A DNA stretch of 64,000 bases from Companilactobacillus formosensis (lineage in GTDB: Bacteria; Bacillota; Bacilli; Lactobacillales; Lactobacillaceae), in contig NZ_BJDU01000005.1 in assembly GCF_005405305.1 (NCBI RefSeq), positions 124,001 to 188,000 of the forward strand, written 5' to 3'. The notes under the pieces were generated by a model. That model was not told where the DNA came from. It made no database searches and saw only the letters and a list, made by a program, of their open reading frames with translations. Below, in pieces: positions 2,936 through 64,000 of this stretch. The position numbers and the translations under genes were made by a program. Position 1 is the first letter of the stretch, and each line of letters starts with the position of its first letter.

Positions 2936-5032
2936 TTAGTTTGTAACAGCTGATTTTTCTGAAATTTTAATAGTTCCATCAACTAAATCAGCTTTTAAGT
3001 TTTTAACGTCCAAATGATCGAGATAGAATTCAGCTACTTTATCTCTAATTTGTTGCTCAATAACACGACGTAATGGTCTTGCTCCCATGGCTTCGTCATA
3101 TCCTTCATCGATCAACCATTCTTTAGCTTCTGGTGTGACTTCCAAAGTGATTTGTTTCTTAGCCAAGTTAGTATTGACATCATTTAACATCAAGTTAACG
3201 ATTTGATTCAAGTCCTTCTTTGATAGATGGGTAAACTCAACGATGCCATTGAATCTATTCAAAAATTCTGGTTTGAAGTAAGGAGCTAATTTATCCATCA
3301 ACTTCTCGTCTTCAGTTGCTTTATTACCAAATCCAGCATTAGATGTAGCAATAATGATCGTATTCTTGAAATCAACAACATTTCCTTGTCCATCAGTCAA
3401 ACGACCGTCATCCATAACTTGCAATAACAAGGTCAATACTTGAGGGTTAGCCTTTTCAATTTCATCTAACAAAACGATGGAATATGGATTACGACGAACC
3501 TTTTCAGTTAAAGTATTGCCATTATCTTCATAGCCAACGTAACCAGCTGACGTACCAATCAATTTGGATACCGCTGTTAAGTCTGAATATTCACTCATAT
3601 CCAAACGAACGATAGCATCCTTGCTACCAAACATATCTTTGGCTAATTGTTTGACTAATTCCGTCTTACCAACACCAGTAGGTCCAACGAACAAGAAACT
3701 ACCGATTGGACGATTGCCGTCATCAAAACCAGCCCGGTTACGACGAATAGCTCTGACTACCATGTCAACAGCTTCGTTTTGACCGATAACCTTGCTCTTT
3801 AAACGTTTGCCCATATCTTTGAGACGTTCAATATCGCTGGCACCCATTTGTGATACGGGTACACCAGTCAATCTTTGAACGGATTCAGCAATATCGTTAA
3901 CGGTTGCTACTGGTTCATCGGTTTGCTCGTCACCTTTATCTAGTTTTGCTTGTAGTTCTTCAATGTGTTTCTTCAAACTAGCAGCTTTTTCATAATCTTC
4001 TTTTTTAGCAGCAGCTTCTTTATCAGCTTCAGCTTGTTTGAGATCTTTTTCCAAGCTTACTTTGTCAGTTACAGGATTTTTGGCTGCCAAGTGAGCTGCC
4101 GTCATATCGATCAGGTCAATTGCCTTATCTGGTAATGATCTCTGAGGAATGTATTGAACTGAATAATCGACTGCGGCTTTCAATACATTGTCAGGTAGTT
4201 TTACATGATGATGATCTTCGTATGATTTACGTAAACCTTTCAAAATAGCCACCGTAGCATCTTTACTTGGTTCATTGATTGTTACATCGTTGAATCTTCT
4301 TGCCAAAGCAGCATCCTTCATGATCGTATTACGATATTCATCTTGCGTTGTAGCACCAATAATAGAAATCTCGCCACGACTCAAAGCTGGTTTGATAATG
4401 TCAGCTAAACCTTTGCTACCAGAATCGGAGCCACTTGATCCAGCACCAATGATTTGATGAATTTCATCGAAGAATAAGACGACATTGCCAGCCTTTTTAA
4501 CTTCTTGCAAAAGTTTTTGAATGTTTTCCTCAAATGATCCACGGTATTGAGTCCCTGCTTCAAGAGATGAAACATCAATTGAAATAATTTGTTTGTCTTT
4601 GATAGCTTCAGGTACGTCACCTTTGACGATGGCTTGTGCTAAACCCTCAACTACTGCAGTCTTACCAACACCAGCATCACCAACGAGAATTGGATTATTC
4701 TTCGTTCTCCGACTTAAAACTTCAGCTGTTTCTTGAATCTCTTTGTCACGGCCAATAACTGGATCCAAAAGTCCATCTTTAGCCTCTTGGGTCAAATTAC
4801 GACCTAACTTCTCTAACATCGTGCCATTTTTTGTTTGTTTATTATCGCTGATAGGGATATTTTCCCCAGCAGTTCTTGCTTCTTGATATTTTGCTAATTC
4901 TTCAGGAGTCAACTCTTGGCCATTCACATAATACTTAGCTTGTGAATTACCGTTTTGTTGACTCATTAATCTTCTAAATATTTCGTCCATATTGTCGTTA
5001 AATGGATCTCCATCCCAAAATGATCTTGCCAT
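2936..5032 (-). CDS. clpL: ATP-dependent chaperone ClpL (Clp/Hsp100 ATPase)
   Basis: Hsp100 disaggregase linked to heat and acid tolerance in lactobacilli and streptococci. The 698 residues carry two AAA+ modules: Walker A GDAGVGKT at about 118-125 with Walker B FFDEIH at 187-192, a short charged coiled-coil middle region at about 325-370, and a second Walker A GPTGVGKT at 450-457. The N-terminus has the short ClpL-type segment ([12 protein letters not shown]) instead of a Clp N-domain or zinc finger, which separates it from ClpC and ClpE. A GAGGAGGC ribosome site precedes it. It lies 12 bases behind a small XRE gene, and I saw no CtsR box nearby. Confidence 0.9.
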
Positions 5033-5044
5033 ATAAAAGCCTCC

Positions 5045-5266
5045 TCACTTCAAGTAATGCAATTCCAATTCACGCAGAACTTTCCACATTGCTGTATCCT
5101 GCGCCTTGGCAATTGCCTCTATATCGCGCAAATTGATAGATGTGGCGGAAGATTGTTTTTTGTTGAAAGATTTATGAAGCGTCGTATAACCATACCCGCT
5201 CTTTTTTGCTATTACATAAATTGTTAATCCGTTGTCTTCTAAGTATGATTTGATATCTATTCTCAT
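5045..5266 (-). CDS. Small XRE-like helix-turn-helix regulator upstream of clpL
   Basis: A 73-residue protein starting MRIDIKSYLEDNG, chosen because TTGGAGAAAG lies just upstream. An in-frame extension of 17 residues would run into the operator. It looks like a single compact helix-turn-helix domain (YVIAKKSGYGYTTLHKSF as the likely HTH). The promoter (TTGTGT, 16 bases, TATACT) overlaps three CACAAATGTG-type sites, which suggests autoregulation. Being 12 bases ahead of clpL, it probably also controls the chaperone. No named family could be assigned. Confidence 0.75.
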   Translation of the reverse strand: MRIDIKSYLEDNGLTIYVIAKKSGYGYTTLHKSFNKKQSSATSINLRDIEAIAKAQDTAMWKVLRELELHYLK

Positions 5267-5296
5267 CTTTCTCCAACCTCCACACTTATAGTATAG

Positions 5297-5338
5297 CACA
5301 TTTGTGATATAACACAAATGTGAAGTATCACAAATGTG
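5297..5338 (-). promoter_or_regulatory. Triple 10-base operator before the XRE-clpL operon
   Basis: Three exact 10-mers occur at 5297-5306 (CACATTTGTG), 5313-5322 and 5329-5338 (both CACAAATGTG). The first is the inverse of the other two. Their starts are spaced exactly 16 bases apart with 6-base spacers. They overlap the -35/-10 region on the minus strand and lie about 75 bases ahead of the divergent lipase-like gene, so they may serve both directions. Confidence 0.7.
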
Positions 5339-5413
5339 ACATATTTTTAAAATGATTCTTGATTCCTAATTTATCAACATTTTGTTAAACTAAAACTATT
5401 AAGAGGTGATTTA

Positions 5414-7132
5414 ATGAGGGCCTTACTAAGTACTTTAAACAGATTAAATCATGTTTATGACCAACTCGATTTACTCAATTTTCGAGCTCACAAGAATCTT
5501 CCTTTGACTTTCAACAAGGAAGATAGTAAGAAGTTACTACCCCAAAACAAACGTCTTTATTTCAGTTATTCGTATCTAAATAAGGAAAAATCTCGTTTAA
5601 CGAATGTATTATTGAACCAAGTTGTTGACTTACGTTTACCAATTTTTATCAGAAATAAAACTATCCATCCCCAGATGATCGATAAAGTCTTAAAACTGCA
5701 AAACATCAATCAAGCTCCTAGCAAGCAACGTTTCAAACTACCTTCTAGAAATCGTAAAATCAACAAATTAAAACAGTTGATTACAATGATTGAAAACGAA
5801 AATTTGAATCTTTGCCGTGGATATCTCAATCAAATTTATATCATTTTGCTGATTCATCATGCCTTGCCTTTAGAGCTAAGAGATCAACGTTATCAAGCTG
5901 GTGAATTACTTCAAGATAGTGATTTTCGGACCAAGCTTTTACAATACGACTATGATCGTTATTTGTATGAAGAATTTGAACCGGAAAATTACTTACGACT
6001 ATTGATTTACAATCGTGTCCATCGGATGCCAGATTACGTTAAATCTTTTGAAGCTCGCAAAGTTTTGCCTGAAGCTGCTGAATGTGGATTTTCTGCCACG
6101 GCTTTTCAAATTGCTATCGATGGTGTCAAAGAACTGTACATTGCCTTTCGTGGTACCGAAGGTGGCGATGACAATACTATCAAATCTCGCAGTAAACGTT
6201 TTGAAGCCTCAATCTTAGAAACTTATAAAGATTGGGATTACAACGTCAACGCTATTTTGATTGGTAGCGATAAAAATCTCAGCCAACTGAAAATGGCTCG
6301 GCAATTCGTACAATACGTTAAATTACACAGTCTTTCTGACACTTTGATCTATGGCTTAGGACATTCTTTAGGTGGTCATTTTGTCCAAACTTTGCAACTA
6401 ATGGACAATCCTTTTGATGCCGGTTTTACACTGAACTCTGCTCCAGTTAATTTAAAATTGATCCAACATTTAAAGCCTGAATTATTTACTCCAGAAATCT
6501 GGGAAAAATTATTTGATTTAACTAATGATACGGAAAATGTGAAGTACATTACGACTGACTTAAAAAATCAAATCAATCGTCTATTACCAAGTGATTATTC
6601 GGAAATTATCAACCAAAGTTTTGAACAGGATATGACCCAAGTTTTCTACGAATTGCCTTTTACTATTTGGATCGGACAAAAATGGGAATATAACTTAAGT
6701 AATTGGAAATATCCTTTTAAAAATCATCCCCGAGCCTTTTTGAGCAGTGGTGAAATTCACGCCTATCAAAGATTCTTTGAACAATTATTCGCTTACCTAA
6801 CGATTTCTAATAATAGTGCTCAGGTCGTCAAAAATAGTATGAGTTTTATTAGACATCGAACACGAATATTACATAATACGATCAATGACCCTAAAACTGC
6901 TAAATACTTTTTTGACTATGCTAATTATTTGTACCAGTCTGGCGTCTTTAAAGATCGTCCACAAAAAATCAGTCAAACTTTCATTGAAGAAAATAATTCT
7001 GTTCTTCGTGGTTCGTTACGCGAGTGGCCTTTTTTGAAGAGTATAAATACTGATATGTTAGGCTTGGCAACCTATTTCCACGTTATAGATGGTGCAAAAC
7101 ATTTCCTCAATCGCAAGCCTACAAAATTATAA
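5414..7132 (+). CDS. Lipase-like alpha/beta hydrolase (class 3/DUF2974 type)
   Basis: Predicted cytoplasmic serine hydrolase of 572 residues; no signal peptide is visible. The nucleophile elbow GHSLGG at 316-321 places the catalytic serine at about Ser318. The upstream AFRGTEGGD block at about 244-252 resembles the oxyanion region of class 3 lipases and Mbeg1-like proteins. The N-terminal 200 residues are basic, helix-rich and unassigned. The start follows AAGAGGTG. It is transcribed away from the XRE-clpL operon. The substrate is unknown; a lipid or ester is only inferred from the fold. Confidence 0.7.
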   Translation: MRALLSTLNRLNHVYDQLDLLNFRAHKNLPLTFNKEDSKKLLPQNKRLYFSYSYLNKEKSRLTNVLLNQVVDLRLPIFIRNKTIHPQMIDKVLKLQNINQAPSKQRFKLPSRNRKINKLKQLITMIENENLNLCRGYLNQIYIILLIHHALPLELRDQRYQAGELLQDSDFRTKLLQYDYDRYLYEEFEPENYLRLLIYNRVHRMPDYVKSFEARKVLPEAAECGFSATAFQIAIDGVKELYIAFRGTEGGDDNTIKSRSKRFEASILETYKDWDYNVNAILIGSDKNLSQLKMARQFVQYVKLHSLSDTLIYGLGHSLGGHFVQTLQLMDNPFDAGFTLNSAPVNLKLIQHLKPELFTPEIWEKLFDLTNDTENVKYITTDLKNQINRLLPSDYSEIINQSFEQDMTQVFYELPFTIWIGQKWEYNLSNWKYPFKNHPRAFLSSGEIHAYQRFFEQLFAYLTISNNSAQVVKNSMSFIRHRTRILHNTINDPKTAKYFFDYANYLYQSGVFKDRPQKISQTFIEENNSVLRGSLREWPFLKSINTDMLGLATYFHVIDGAKHFLNRKPTKL

Positions 7133-13854: not shown

Positions 13855-15985
13855 ATGCAAAAAATAAAATCCATATTGAACACGCGACTGGGATTCATGA
13901 GTTTCTTAGTTGTTTGTCTATGGTTAAAAACAGTGGTTACTTATTTTTTAGACTTTGGTTTAACTATCAATAACTTATGGCAATACTTTTTCATGATAGT
14001 TAACCCTTTGGCAACACTGGTTTTTTTATTAGGATTAGCTCTTTACATCAACAAACCAAAAATTTCATATTTAGTAATGGGATTTATTTATCTAGCCGAC
14101 TCTATTTTTATTTACGCTAATTTACTCTATTATCGCGAAATGGCCGACTTTATCTCGGTCAGTACAATGCTTGGTGTCACTAAAGTTGCTAAGGGATTAG
14201 GCGCTAGTACTCTAAGCTCGATGCAGCCGAGAGATTTAATCTACTTAATAGACTTTGCAGTGATAATTTTATTATTCGCAACTCATTTTGTAAAAATCGA
14301 CCAACGACCATTTAGAAAACTCAACGCTCTAGCCACTAGTATGCTTGGAATTGCACTATTCTCTGCCGATTTAGCAGGTTCTGAAGCTAATCGACCACAA
14401 TTATTAGGAAGAACTTTTGACCACTCTTATATTGTCCAATATCTCGGTATCAATTCATTCTTAGGCTATGATTCAGTTCGCTCAGTCCAAAACAATCAAG
14501 TACGCTCTAATGCTACTGAAGCTGAAGTCGATGACGTCTTAGATTATGTTAACAATAATTATGCCAAACCAAATCCCAAGTATTTTGGTAAAGCTAATGG
14601 CAAAAATATCATCATCATCCACCTAGAAAGTTTCGAACAATTTTTAATCGGTATGAAAGTTAACGGACAAGAAGTTACGCCATTTCTAAATAGTCTTTAC
14701 AATGACCAAAATACCCTTTCGTTTGATAACTTTTTCAATGAAGTTGGTAATGGTCGGACAAGTGATGCGGAAACAATGCTCGAATCAGGTTTATTCGGAT
14801 TACCTGAAGGTTCATTTTTCCAAAAACTTGGTGGCGACAACACTTTCCAATCTGCCCCAGCAATTTTAGCCCAACAAAAAGGTTATACGAGTGCTGTTTT
14901 CCACGGTAATATTGGAAGTTTTTGGGGACGAAACATTACCTACAAAAACATGGGTTACAATTATTTCTTCGACAAAAGTTACTACGACACCAAAGATTCT
15001 GATAGCTTGTCGCTAAATGGTTATGGTGTTAAGGACAAGTTGCTCTTTTCTGAAGGAGTCAAATATCTAGAACAAATGCAACAACCCTTCTACACCAAAT
15101 TCTTAACTATCACTAATCACGTCGGCTATCAATTTTCTGATGAAGACAACGCCGGTTTCCAAACTTCTGACAACGAAAATTCTACTGTAAATGACTACTT
15201 CAAAACTGCCCATTATCTCGATAAATCCGTCGAAGAATTTTTCAATTACTTAAAAGCTTCTGGCTTAGAAAAAAATACTATGGTTGTACTTTACGGTGAT
15301 CATTACGGCTTAAATGACGAACAACACCAAGCTCTTTCAACAATGATCGGTAAAACTCCGGAGACTTGGACAAAATTTGACAACGCTCAAATGCAGCGCG
15401 TTCCTTTTATGATTCATATGGACGGACTAAAGGGTGGAATTAATCATACTTATGGTGGCGAGATCGATGTTCTGCCAACAATCTTACATCTAGCCGGGGT
15501 CAATACTAAATCGTACGTACAGTTATCTACTTTCCAAGCAACATAATTCAATCGTTGCCTTCAGAAAGAAAAGCTTCGTAACGCCAAAATACACTGTCAT
15601 CAGAAATGGAACCTCGACTACCGTTTACACGAATGAAACTGGTGAAGAAGTCGATATGCGCAATAACCCTGAATTAGTCACTAAAGTTGCTAAATGGGAA
15701 GAAGATGTTGATACTAAACTCAAGACCTCTGACAATATCAATAACAAAAACTTGCTTCGCTTCTATACGCCAAAGGGATTCACTCCCACCGACCCGAATA
15801 ATTATTCTTATTTGAATCAAGTACAACAAATGGAAGAACTCCGTAACAAACTCGGAGATAAATCAACTAGTCTTTATTCAAAGAATGGCAATAAATCAAC
15901 AACTGATCTTTACACGACTGATGCAGTACAACTACAAAATGACCGTACGCCAATCGACAGTTGGGACTATTTAAATCAAAAATAA
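13855..15985 (+). pseudogene. LtaS-like gene 2, frameshifted near its 3' end
   Basis: A tandem paralog of the previous gene with the same layout and nucleophile threonine (about Thr302, GRTSDAETM). The ATG at 13855 was chosen because GAGGGATATT precedes it and its product aligns with the paralog start. The frame is open to a stop at 15546. From 15526 the matching sequence continues in another frame (LLSKQHNSIVAFR) to 15985. Against the paralog, eight bases are missing at about 15525/15526, where the paralog encodes GTD. The truncated 563-residue product still holds the whole sulfatase domain but lost the tail, so it may remain active. A sequencing error is possible. Confidence 0.85.
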
Positions 15986-58691: not shown

Positions 58692-59432
58692 CTATGATAA
58701 CACTTCAACAGAAGCTGTGGTTACACCATATGAAGGAATTGATGAACTTGGCATAGCAACATCTAATTGTTGTGAGTTACTGCTGGCAAATGTTCCTGTA
58801 TCATTAACAGTTCTATAGAGTACTGTTCCATCAGCTAAAGTAATTTTTAATTGAGTTCCCTTAGGGAAGACTGATAGATTAGCAGCAACACCACTATAAC
58901 CCATGTTAGAACCTAAGACTGAAGGATCATAGAATGAAATCTTGAATGTTCCTTGTGAAGTACCAGTTGTGCTTGTTGATTGTGTTGTATTTGTATCTGT
59001 TGTTTGTGAAGTTGTATCTGCAGCTGCTTGTGTAGTTGCAGTTTGTGTTTGTGTTTGTGTTTGTGTTTGTGTTTGTGTTTGTGTTTGTGTTTGTTGTGAA
59101 GCATCAGTTGCTTGAGCTGATGTATCAGTTGTTGTATCTGTATTTGTATTTGTTGTAGCAGTTGTATCGGTTGTAGTTGTAGCACCAGGTAGAGTAATTG
59201 TTTCGCCTGGGAAGATCAAGTCAAATCCGCCAACTTCACGTCCGTTAGCTTGTTCTAGAGCAGAAATACTAATTCCATTAGCTTCTGCAATACTCTTATA
59301 AGTATCACCCTTTTCAACTGTCACTGTGTTGTCTCCGTTATTTACGGCAGCTTGAACAGTGTTAGAAGTTGAAGCAAGAATTCCTGATAAAGCCATTGCA
59401 CTTACTAAAGCGATAGATAAAACTTTTTTCAT
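58692..59432 (-). CDS. Secreted LysM and 3D-domain cell wall protein
   Basis: Exported protein of 246 residues: signal peptide ending VQA, one LysM domain at about 36-78 (VEKGDTYKSIAEANGISISALEQANG), a Thr/Gln-rich linker with a (QT)n tract at about 110-135, and a C-terminal 3D/beta-barrel domain (NMGYSGVA, FPKGTQLKI, NDTG...LDVAMP). LysM binds peptidoglycan, so this is probably a wall-bound lytic enzyme. The last 80 residues closely match the protein at 20991-21662. Confidence 0.88.
   Translation of the reverse strand: MKKVLSIALVSAMALSGILASTSNTVQAAVNNGDNTVTVEKGDTYKSIAEANGISISALEQANGREVGGFDLIFPGETITLPGATTTTDTTATTNTNTDTTTDTSAQATDASQQTQTQTQTQTQTQTQTQTATTQAAADTTSQTTDTNTTQSTSTTGTSQGTFKISFYDPSVLGSNMGYSGVAANLSVFPKGTQLKITLADGTVLYRTVNDTGTFASSNSQQLDVAMPSSSIPSYGVTTASVEVLS
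59041..59094 (+). repeat. Nine perfect GTTTGT hexamers inside the LysM-3D gene
   Basis: Nine exact copies of a 6-base unit, encoding the Gln-Thr tract of the linker on the minus strand. Changes in copy number would lengthen or shorten the linker by two residues without a frameshift. Confidence 0.95.
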
Positions 59433-60926: not shown

Positions 60927-61068
60927 TGTCTACCTCCGTTTTCATCCCGTATTCTAACAATATTTACAGAAAGTAGCACCTTTAAAGCATTATTATTTTC
61001 ATTGTAAAAACAAGCTTTATAGTTGCTAATTAATCAATAATTAGATATTATAGTGAATGGACACCATG

Positions 61069-61429
61069 GGGGTGTTCTGGATTCGACATGTGTAGTAGCG
61101 TGCAGGCTGCACTTAGGGCCTTGCGTCCCTTTAAAACGCACAGTTTATTATAACTGCAAAAAATAATAATAACTACGCATTAGCTGCCTAAAAACAGTCT
61201 AAGCGTGATCCATTCTAGCTTCGCCCAAGGGTTGGAACTGGGTCTCAAAATTATTGGGCTACGTTTAACTGTGCATCCTGAATAGTTAAAAAGAGATCAT
61301 CGGGATAGTCATTGTGGTCAGCCGGGTCGTATGGCGTTCATGATGGCGAAACTTCAAATGATACGACTACGAGTGTAGAGGCTTGCATAGCATTATGCTT
61401 GGACAGGGGTTCAATTCCCCTCACCTCCA
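61069..61429 (+). ncRNA. ssrA: Transfer-messenger RNA (ssrA)
   Basis: Rescues stalled ribosomes and tags the unfinished protein for degradation. The 5' end GGGGGTG pairs with CACCTCC at the 3' end (61422-61428), discriminator A at 61429; CCA is not encoded. The TTCAATTCCCC T-arm is present. The tag frame at 61156-61191 reads AKNNNNYALAA followed by TAA. Pseudoknot arms fill the middle. Length about 361 bases is normal. Confidence 0.96.
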
Positions 61430-61445
61430 TAAAGCAGATTTCAGT

Positions 61446-61491
61446 CAGTTGTATTAAGGTCTAAAAGCCTTGATGTGACTGGCTTTTTTCT
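61446..61491 (+). terminator. Terminator of ssrA
   Basis: Two-tier hairpin (GTCAGT...GACTGGC outer arms, AAGG/GCCTT inner) followed by a run of six T. Confidence 0.75.
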
Positions 61492-61499
61492 TTTCTCAA

Positions 61500-61553
61500 T
61501 TTCAAACCGTTTCATATTATTTCATGAATATGTCAATCAAAATGTCAATCAAA
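61500..61553 (+). repeat. Phased short repeats behind ssrA, possible integration-site arm
   Basis: TTTCA occurs three times at exactly 10-base spacing (61500, 61510, 61520). Directly after it ATGTCAATCAAA occurs twice in tandem (61530-61541 and 61542-61553). Such helical phasing suits binding of an integrase or other protein next to a tmRNA 3' end, a common insertion site. The rest of 61554-61879 is AT-rich with only tiny open frames; a -10-like TATAAT precedes the next gene near 61845. Confidence 0.4.
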
Positions 61554-61879
61554 AAATATAAGACATGAAAGCAGGAATTGAACAATCCATTCAAAAGAAT
61601 AACAGATGTCCCTAGATGAAATTGATAAACACTATAAAGCATTTAAAGTGAGTCCTGTATCCGAGAAATAAATAAAAGTTTAACTTGTATTTAAGTAACA
61701 TTACATAATTTAAAATTAATCAATAACACTTTACATTCTAAATTTCTTTTCCAACTCAAATTTTATAAATGAATCAGCTTCCCTCGATAAAAATATTTGC
61801 TAACAATCACGTGTTAATATCTCTTTTAAATTTGCTTTCTATTGTATAATTTTTATAATTACATTTGGAGATGATTAAT

Positions 61880-62737
61880 ATGGATCCTACATTTACTACA
61901 CTCTTATCTGGAGCTACAGGTGGCATTATAGCGAAAGCTTTTGACGGACCATTAAAAAGCCTAGAAGACATATGGTATTCAAGCATTGGCTATAGAACTG
62001 ATAGACTTAGAAAAATTGCTGAACTTAAAAATCACGATGCTATTGAAGAATATAAAGTTGGAATTACGAATGAAACATCAAAGATCCCAGAGAAATTTTT
62101 ACATGAACCTGAATTATCTATAGCTGGTCCTGCTCTAGAAGCGTCTACATATTATGTTACAGATAATTCTGTTAGAAATATGTTTGAAAAATTAATAGCA
62201 AGTTCTATGGACTCTAGAAAAGATGGTATTACACGAGTCTCATTTGTAGAAATAGTTAAACAAATGTCTCCTATAGATGCATTGTTTCTAAAAGAATTTT
62301 CAAAACAAATCAATATACCATTAATACAATTACGAAGCACCATGAAAACTGGATCTTACAATACACTATTTTCAAATATTGTTTCTAATGATTTTAATAT
62401 TGACTCAAAACTTCGGCCACAGTTACCCTCATCCATTGACAATCTTCAACGCTTAGGTTTAGTTAGTGAAGATTATATAAATACTAAAAATGTTGATTAT
62501 GATAAACTTTTTAAAAGCTCTCCAGAATATTTAAAAGCAAAAAAAGAGATTGATGAATCAAATAATAGTGTAAATAGAACCATAGAATATTCTAAGCAGA
62601 ACCAAAATCCATTAGTTCAAAGTATACTAGCGCCTGAGTCTTTATTAAATAAATACTATCCCACTAAACTTAGTATGGTTAAGGGGGTACTACAATTTAC
62701 CTCTTTCGGGACTGATTTTACTTCTGTTTGTTTATAG
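61880..62737 (+). CDS. DUF4393/Abi-alpha family protein 1
   Basis: Protein of 285 residues of the DUF4393 family, also named Abi-alpha for a proposed abortive-infection role. Family blocks are FLHEPELSIAGPALEAS at about 73-89, VRNMFEKLIASSMDSRK at about 99-115, FVEIVKQMSPIDALFLKE and the C-terminal LQFTSFGTDF. A short N-terminal hydrophobic stretch (LLSGATGGIIAKAF) could touch membrane. The ATG at 61880 follows GGAG by nine bases; the in-frame TTG at 61865 overlaps that site. It lies in AT-rich DNA behind ssrA with a second family member after it. Confidence 0.8.
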   Translation: MDPTFTTLLSGATGGIIAKAFDGPLKSLEDIWYSSIGYRTDRLRKIAELKNHDAIEEYKVGITNETSKIPEKFLHEPELSIAGPALEASTYYVTDNSVRNMFEKLIASSMDSRKDGITRVSFVEIVKQMSPIDALFLKEFSKQINIPLIQLRSTMKTGSYNTLFSNIVSNDFNIDSKLRPQLPSSIDNLQRLGLVSEDYINTKNVDYDKLFKSSPEYLKAKKEIDESNNSVNRTIEYSKQNQNPLVQSILAPESLLNKYYPTKLSMVKGVLQFTSFGTDFTSVCL

Positions 62738-63134
62738 TTAATTAAAACCACAAATTGCTATCCCCATTGGTCGGATATCATAATTCTGGTTCTTTAATCG
62801 ATTAACACTAAGCAACGCTATTAATATTAATCATTCACATTACCGTCTTCTAACTCATATCATCAGATAAGAAATCATGGGTGGCACTACTTGCTAAATT
62901 AATGGCTACCACATTATATTTAGCTAGATTAAAACTATTTGGTTTAAATCTAAATTTATCTTTTGTTACTACGGCTTATATCAATAAGTGTGTCAATTAT
63001 CTTCTACTAACTTGTTGTCCGAATACTGATTATACGGTCTCATACCACTGATTGAATTGTATTCATCATCTGCTTGTTTTTTATGAATATTGTTTATTAA
63101 ATCACTCATTATACTATGAATCGAGGTATTGTAT
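62738..63134. other. 397-base gap between the two Abi-alpha genes
   Basis: AT-rich stretch without a convincing gene. A 38-codon frame on the minus strand (62993-63109, MSDLINNIHKKQADDEY) and a 65-codon frame without start on the plus strand near 62850-63048 are both weak. GAGG before the next ATG marks its ribosome site. The gap may hold a separate promoter for the second gene. Confidence 0.4.
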
Positions 63135-63917
63135 ATGAACTATGATGGATTTGATCCAAAAGACTTAGAACCTTTTAAGGATTTAATCAACGACTTAGGC
63201 CACCCTTCTGCTACCGCCATAGGTAAAGCCTTGGGTGGATTATTTTCAGGTGTCCTATATTACCCAACTAAGCTAGGAATATATACTCAATACAAATTAG
63301 ATGAATATCAAAAAAAAATTGCCACTAAATTAAATGAAATTCCTGATGAAAATAAAGACTCCTCTAAACTTGGGTTAGTTATGAAAGAAATTGAAGATTC
63401 AAAATATCAATTAAATTCTGAGACCTTACAAGAAATGTTTTCTGAACTAATAAAATCAACTCTTGATAGTAAATCTAATCAGTGTGTATCACCAAGGTAT
63501 TCATCAATCTTGTCACAGTTAAATCCCGATGATGCAAAATTTCTAAAAAGTATGTCAGAAAGTACTATGAATAATTTTCCCGCGGTTCAATTCATATTTA
63601 GATCAAGTAATAATCCGGATATCCAACAACAATCAAATATTTTTGTCTCCCCAAACTATGAACCATTTGAATTAATACATAATGATTCTGCTTTAAATGT
63701 TTTATCCTCGCTAGGAATCATTGAAATAATATTCGACAGAAAACTTTCTATGCAAAAAGGAATAAACTTTTATAAAAACGTAGTTTTATCTAACGAATAT
63801 AAATCATCAGCCAATGCAATAAATAATATGACTAGTGCCAGTTCATCAGAAGGGTTCATTCAATTTACTGCTTTTGGAATTTCTTTCATAAATCTTGTTT
63901 GTAAAGCTAATCATTAA
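63135..63917 (+). CDS. DUF4393/Abi-alpha family protein 2
   Basis: Protein of 260 residues, a diverged partner of the previous one. It shows the same plan: Gly/Ala-rich N-terminal stretch (AIGKALGGLFSGVLYYP), the LQEMFSELIKSTLDSKSN block matching FEKLIASSMDSRK, SILSQLNPDDAKFLKSM matching VKQMSPIDALFLKEF, and the ending IQFTAFGISFINLVC. It lacks the HEPELSIAGPALEAS block, which is replaced by SKLGLVMKEIEDSKYQLN. The ATG at 63135 follows GAGG by eight bases. The 83 bases after it to the window end show no gene start. Confidence 0.72.
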   Translation: MNYDGFDPKDLEPFKDLINDLGHPSATAIGKALGGLFSGVLYYPTKLGIYTQYKLDEYQKKIATKLNEIPDENKDSSKLGLVMKEIEDSKYQLNSETLQEMFSELIKSTLDSKSNQCVSPRYSSILSQLNPDDAKFLKSMSESTMNNFPAVQFIFRSSNNPDIQQQSNIFVSPNYEPFELIHNDSALNVLSSLGIIEIIFDRKLSMQKGINFYKNVVLSNEYKSSANAINNMTSASSSEGFIQFTAFGISFINLVCKANH

Positions 63918-64000
63918 TTTAAAAAATACTAAGAGCGTTTTCTTATATTGGAGATACTATTCACAAAAATTGTAATGAAAAATACAACCGACGCTGATGT

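Follow-up and report, generated by a model that had tools for sequence, protein, structure and literature searches.

Two adjacent genes inserted at the 3' end of ssrA in Companilactobacillus formosensis encode proteins, here called P1 and P2, which we consider, with a probability of roughly 0.6, to be two complete and independently acquired single-gene Abi-alpha proteins left side by side by the decay of one or two prophages at the ssrA site. The genes lie at the end of the window, the whole stretch of 64,000 nucleotides that was analysed, as intact open reading frames (ORFs) on the same strand. P1 (285 aa; positions 61880-62737, plus strand) has an ATG start with an in-frame TTG at 61865 and belongs to subfamily A of Abi-alpha (GPALEAS type); P2 (260 aa; 63135-63917, plus strand) has an ATG start with an in-frame TTG at 63129 and belongs to subfamily B (DSSKLGL type). 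They are separated by a gap of 397 bp (62738-63134).

The initial annotation had assigned both proteins to the DUF4393/Abi-alpha family and proposed a Pfam search, which bears the assignment out: P1 and P2 score 144.6 and 122.3 bits against PF14337 (gathering cut-off 29) and cover positions 2-196 and 2-195, respectively, of the 196-position profile. Both also match the three models of PADLOC PDC-S47, a name that stands for a phage defence candidate label only and for which a literature search found no paper using it. A family search of the whole assembly at an E-value of 0.001 returned the P1 and P2 places only. The common block plan described for the two proteins is present in both, but the agreement is only approximate, with SSMDSR of P1 corresponding to STLDSK of P2, MSPIDALFLK to LNPDDAKFLK, and QFTxFG near the end of each. 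The HEPELS segment was thought to have been lost from the second protein. In a 28-member alignment, however, its columns are occupied in P2 by KDSSKLG free of gaps, which indicates that nothing has been lost and that P2 represents another subfamily. RDxSK-type forms occupy the same columns in other members of its subfamily (RDSSKLN in L091, RDNSKLG in L021, RDMSKQG in L020 and RDSSKLG in L025).

The two genes appear to have separate histories. In a tree of 134 non-redundant members, whose midpoint root serves for drawing only, P1 and P2 are split by a branch with a support of 97/97. P2 falls within a clade of 29 members (100/100), beside a gene of another genome, G030 (L006; 100/99), that is also carried by the viral contig L065, and the nearest relative of P1 is found on the viral contig L208 (100/99). 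L065 and L208 each show a single Abi-alpha gene over the part that was read, and both genes occupy the same kind of slot in the phage early region, flanked by antirepressor and Sak4-like genes. The closest relatives of the pair are therefore prophage genes, each without a second copy in the part read; the window pair itself sits in a decayed insert. A recent duplication was considered and rejected in view of the identity of about 20% between P1 and P2 and their separate clades. The position of the proteins on separate tree branches also removes the basis for regarding their divergence as that expected of a two-part unit.

The gap between the genes itself contains a trace of probable phage DNA. 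Positions 62740-62902, read on the minus strand, align with part of a phage-type replication region in genome G024 (68% DNA identity over 179 bp; E 2.5e-10), and the sequence is decayed in the window. Its counterpart in G024 is a 101-aa ORF with a DnaC-like loader on one side and an SSB gene on the other; in spite of these neighbours, the ORF had no match among phage records and no PHROG match. Direct protein comparison of the remnant with G024 scored 26.2 bits in one frame and 19.2 bits in another, and 100 shuffles gave at most 16.9 bits. This middle piece was recognised solely by the DNA comparison and the direct protein comparison, and it is probably a decayed piece of a phage gene. In another genome, G209, two Abi-alpha genes, one of each subfamily, lie about 11-12 kb apart (L289:3053-3883 and 14900-15700); by eye, they sit in two neighbouring phage regions, an arrangement that is a possible precursor of tandem remnants.

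A survey of genomes for conserved two-gene tandems, which the initial annotation had called for, found an adjacent intact pair only in the window's genome. A family match was present in 4 of 60 relatives, 28 of 395 genomes of the order, 27 of 397 of the family and 4 of 398 of the phylum, in sets that overlap and each include the window's genome, and none of these surveys of 60, 395, 397 and 398 genomes yielded a second genome with two adjacent intact members. Where a genome gave several matches, these were of other kinds: those of G084 lie on different contigs and one copy has a stop, and those of G318, G224 and G369 are pieces of broken genes, with a further copy on another contig in G318. 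Among the 287 loci collected, which are the best matches listed rather than all matches and mostly have only 1.5-6 kb of flank, some ending at contig ends, 234 contain a member. Two intact members occur only in four of them, all of which represent the place of the window itself; in L108, what might look like a pair is a single broken gene. Phage records were matched by P1 in 79 cases with 80 places and by P2 in 56 cases with 56 places, and plasmid records in five and two cases, respectively. The record of Moraxella phage Mcat6 has two matching places, and the 10.9-kb region read shows one member by eye. A single-sequence search of viral contigs with P1 gave no match. A limited literature search found no description of an Abi-alpha tandem. 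Taken together, the separate branches, the lone prophage relatives, the lack of a second tandem in the surveys and the decayed phage-type piece between the genes lead us to the independent acquisition of P1 and P2.

The insertion at ssrA proposed earlier is confirmed by a DNA comparison in which 20 kb spanning the insert was set against the ssrA regions from 14 of 35 congeners. The ssrA gene (tmRNA; 61068-61429, plus strand; tag AKNNNNYALAA) is the insertion site, and its 3' end is the limit of strong homology. Genomes G022 and G031 have empty sites, in which homology runs straight from the ssrA region to that of a downstream MFS-type gene with less than 100 bp between them, and in the window's genome homology with both resumes at L003:5289-5293. 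The insert is therefore 2.86 kb long, from the ssrA 3' end to about 288 bp past the window end (L003:5288); its right part, which begins at 63918-64000 within the window, has no recognised gene there. Its G+C content is 29.6%, compared with about 34-35% around it.

Directly 3' of ssrA lies an element-derived stretch of 123 bp (61430-61552, plus strand) with its own terminator-like hairpin (61443-61484), unlike those found behind ssrA in G022 and G031. At the corresponding position in G003 there is a sequence with 94% identity to this stretch, next to an ssrA with 91% identity, as would fit an element end common to both. In G029, 61 bp of the stretch are present in two copies about 4.4 kb apart (L078:9854-9970 and 5418-5478), the second of them further from ssrA; the duplication resembles attachment sites and may represent an att duplication. 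Other congeners among those listed (the L066-L079 set) have different DNA after ssrA. By our reading of the sequences, this DNA includes a phage head-type gene in G011 and, in G026, several genes of prophage-like character. Across the genus, the ssrA 3' site is a hot spot for insertion, unoccupied in G022 and G031 and with other cargo elsewhere. The insert shares its position with the integrative elements and prophages known from ssrA 3' ends, as do the different cargoes of several congeners, but differs from them in that neither an integrase nor a second att copy was found. Between ssrA and the downstream MFS-type gene, only two ORFs of at least 70 aa are present and none is an integrase, and a comparison of the left and right end stretches for an attL/attR direct repeat gave no common exact 10-mer. 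The description as a prophage remnant consequently draws on the small replication-gene remnant and on the left end.

The remaining non-coding parts of the insert gave few further signals. When its left, middle and right non-coding pieces were compared by blastx with the ORFs of the collected loci (E 0.01), the middle and right pieces had no match, and the sole match was between the first 84 bases of the left piece and a short ORF at the same place in G011. A short open stretch after ssrA at 61600-61670, MSLDEIDKHYKAFKVSPVSEK, may be what is left of the end of a gene that has disappeared; it had no match among the ORFs of the collected loci. Promoter-like sites are no commoner than in shuffles (11 against a shuffle mean of 17.2), and we therefore claim no promoter. 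Elsewhere in the window, positions 58692-59432 (minus strand) encode what we take to be a secreted protein, apparently of LysM type, with a long Thr/Gln-rich low-complexity stretch.

Comparison of close relatives revealed that the two halves of Abi-alpha proteins differ in their conservation. Between P2 and its relative in G030, identity is 81% as far as about residue 142 and 21% beyond it. From 155 unique members, we formed 111 pairs in which one half was at least 60% identical and not both halves were at least 97% identical. The N-half exceeded the C-half by >0.15 in 101 of these 111 pairs, and the reverse was seen in none. These pairs have members in common; in a disjoint set using each member once, the N-half was ahead by >0.15 in 26 of 29 pairs and the C-half in none. 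Neighbouring genes from the same locus pairs (n = 52) served as a control, with nine cases of N>C and 13 of C>N; a lopsidedness of >0.3 was found in 15 of the 52 (five N>C and 10 C>N), partly owing to differing start calls. The lopsidedness of the neighbours in both directions makes them a control that lacks the direction seen in Abi-alpha.

The step in conservation lies near residue 140. Averaged in 10-residue blocks of P1 over the 26 disjoint pairs, which had been chosen beforehand for N>C by >0.15, mean identity is 0.69-0.93 up to residue 140, 0.31-0.48 at 141-180, 0.63-0.68 at 181-200, 0.21-0.46 at 201-270 and 0.66-0.67 at the end (271-285). This profile indicates that a presumed winged-helix scaffold stays and that a hairpin and an insert vary. 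Many loci had been found through N-half motifs, which could favour conserved N-halves. Three single-sequence searches seeded with C-halves, which reach close relatives only, served to control for this bias and gave 27 loci, some of them on contigs already used. The N-half was at least 87.5% identical in 25 of the 27, with only part of it aligning in L308, and the C-half exceeded the N-half by >3 points in none of these 25; the other two, L316 and L318, are fragments that comprise the C-terminal part and lack the N-half. Among the 27 loci, there was no intact gene whose C-half was conserved and whose N-half differed.

The viral contigs L225 and L235, Mcat6-like as read from their sequence, provide a detailed example. 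Over positions of about 4974-5879, the N-half blocks of the Abi-alpha gene have identities of 0.96-1.00, three C-half blocks have 0.68-0.81, and the DNA 3' of the gene returns to 0.99, with a last partial block of 0.87. The difference in the C-half is apparently a local cassette replacement inside one gene. Other local differences lie upstream: a block with an identity of 0.77 some 0.4 kb ahead of the gene and, at a greater distance, a longer stretch with no match. Mosaicism in these contigs is thus not confined to the Abi-alpha gene. The asymmetry suggests a constant effector joined to a variable sensor; alternative readings are looser constraint on the C-half, escape from phage inhibitors, and avoided cross-talk between co-resident prophages. 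The pattern of a constant and a variable half was not found described for Abi-alpha in a limited literature search.

Predicted models of the C-half show a helix-strand pattern and match PDB 3h35 (ABO_0056, an uncharacterised protein) and MarR-like winged-helix folds. The MarR-like matches are tied and weak, and the absence of other folds from these match lists carries no meaning. By sequence, P1 matched no PDB chain at E-values up to 1. Only three of 134 members have a segment of strong hydrophobicity (19-residue Kyte-Doolittle mean of at least 1.6) within their first 60 residues, so that a simple effector spanning the membrane finds no support here.

The initial annotation had linked this family to phage defence by name and context only, a view that is out of date. 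In a report on E. faecalis (PMC6356687), EF2833 from prophage 6 of strain V583, named abi-alpha by its authors and tied to DUF4393, was cloned alone and aborted infection by phage Idefix, with lysis of the infected cells advanced by about 10 min. The report describes this as abortive infection, that is, premature lysis or death with little or no phage yield, includes effects on the holin and on proton-motive force among the possible mechanisms, and notes a resemblance to PDB 3H35 (PMC6356687). P1 and P2 belong to the same Pfam family as EF2833 over nearly the whole profile and are likened to it through that family profile. EF2833 (272 aa; PMC6356687) is prophage-linked, as the proteins of 285 and 260 aa described here probably are, but in the window two members stand side by side, outside an intact prophage, and their function is a predicted one. 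The likely anti-phage role that had been suggested for the pair is supported.

We can thus propose how the pair arose and might act. The decay of one prophage, or of two, at the attachment hot spot beside ssrA would have left P1 and P2 adjacent. By analogy with the E. faecalis protein, each would act alone, and upon phage infection P1 or P2 would cause the cell to lyse or die early. Residues 1-140, with a glycine/alanine-rich start followed by helices, may form the effector, and the C-terminal winged-helix-like half may recognise a phage product, the fast-changing parts being a hairpin at about 141-180 and an insert at about 201-270. If the variable C-half is the recognition part, the pair would provide two specificities and not one complex.

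Other explanations were weighed against independent acquisition. The proposal that P1 and P2 form a hetero-complex or a two-part defence unit, for example sensor and effector or toxin and antitoxin, can appeal to two intact genes of different subfamilies, adjacent on one strand, with no terminator-like site found between them, so that co-transcription is possible. It is nevertheless very improbable, since the surveys contain no other intact tandem, the nearest relatives of both proteins are alone in the stretches read, the 397-bp gap holds the decayed piece of a probable phage gene, and a single abi-alpha gene sufficed in E. faecalis (PMC6356687). A toxin-antitoxin pair in particular was rejected, as the pairing is not conserved in the surveys and both proteins are of full length and come from one and the same family.

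A selected two-gene defence island, in which two useful specificities were kept together after decay and the proteins do not interact, would fit with two full-length ORFs being the only recognisable genes left in the insert. With one genome only, however, persistence looks the same as recent arrival, and we regard this alternative as rather unlikely. Conversely, P1 and P2 might be passive leftovers that are no longer expressed or useful, with the N/C asymmetry reflecting looser constraint on the C-half. The decayed surroundings are in line with this, and the moderate conservation of the scaffold parts (181-200 and 271-285) could arise from constraint alone; yet both ORFs are intact, and steady drift does not produce a local jump like that between L225 and L235, where C-half identities of 0.68-0.81 lie amid near-identity. 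We therefore hold passive persistence to be improbable.

Under the preferred reading of two independently acquired proteins, the tandem is nothing unusual, as a known defence family simply has two of its members in a mobile element that has decayed. Beyond this, we tentatively put forward, at somewhat less than even odds, that Abi-alpha is a modular innate phage sensor, consisting of a constant N-terminal effector and a winged-helix scaffold whose hypervariable hairpin and insert are swapped as cassettes between phages; the window pair would then be a two-specificity array drawn from two old subfamilies. The pattern hints at how phages are recognised, and the survey offers a way to test how this defence protein works, since natural alleles that have one half in common and differ in the other can separate cell killing from phage recognition.
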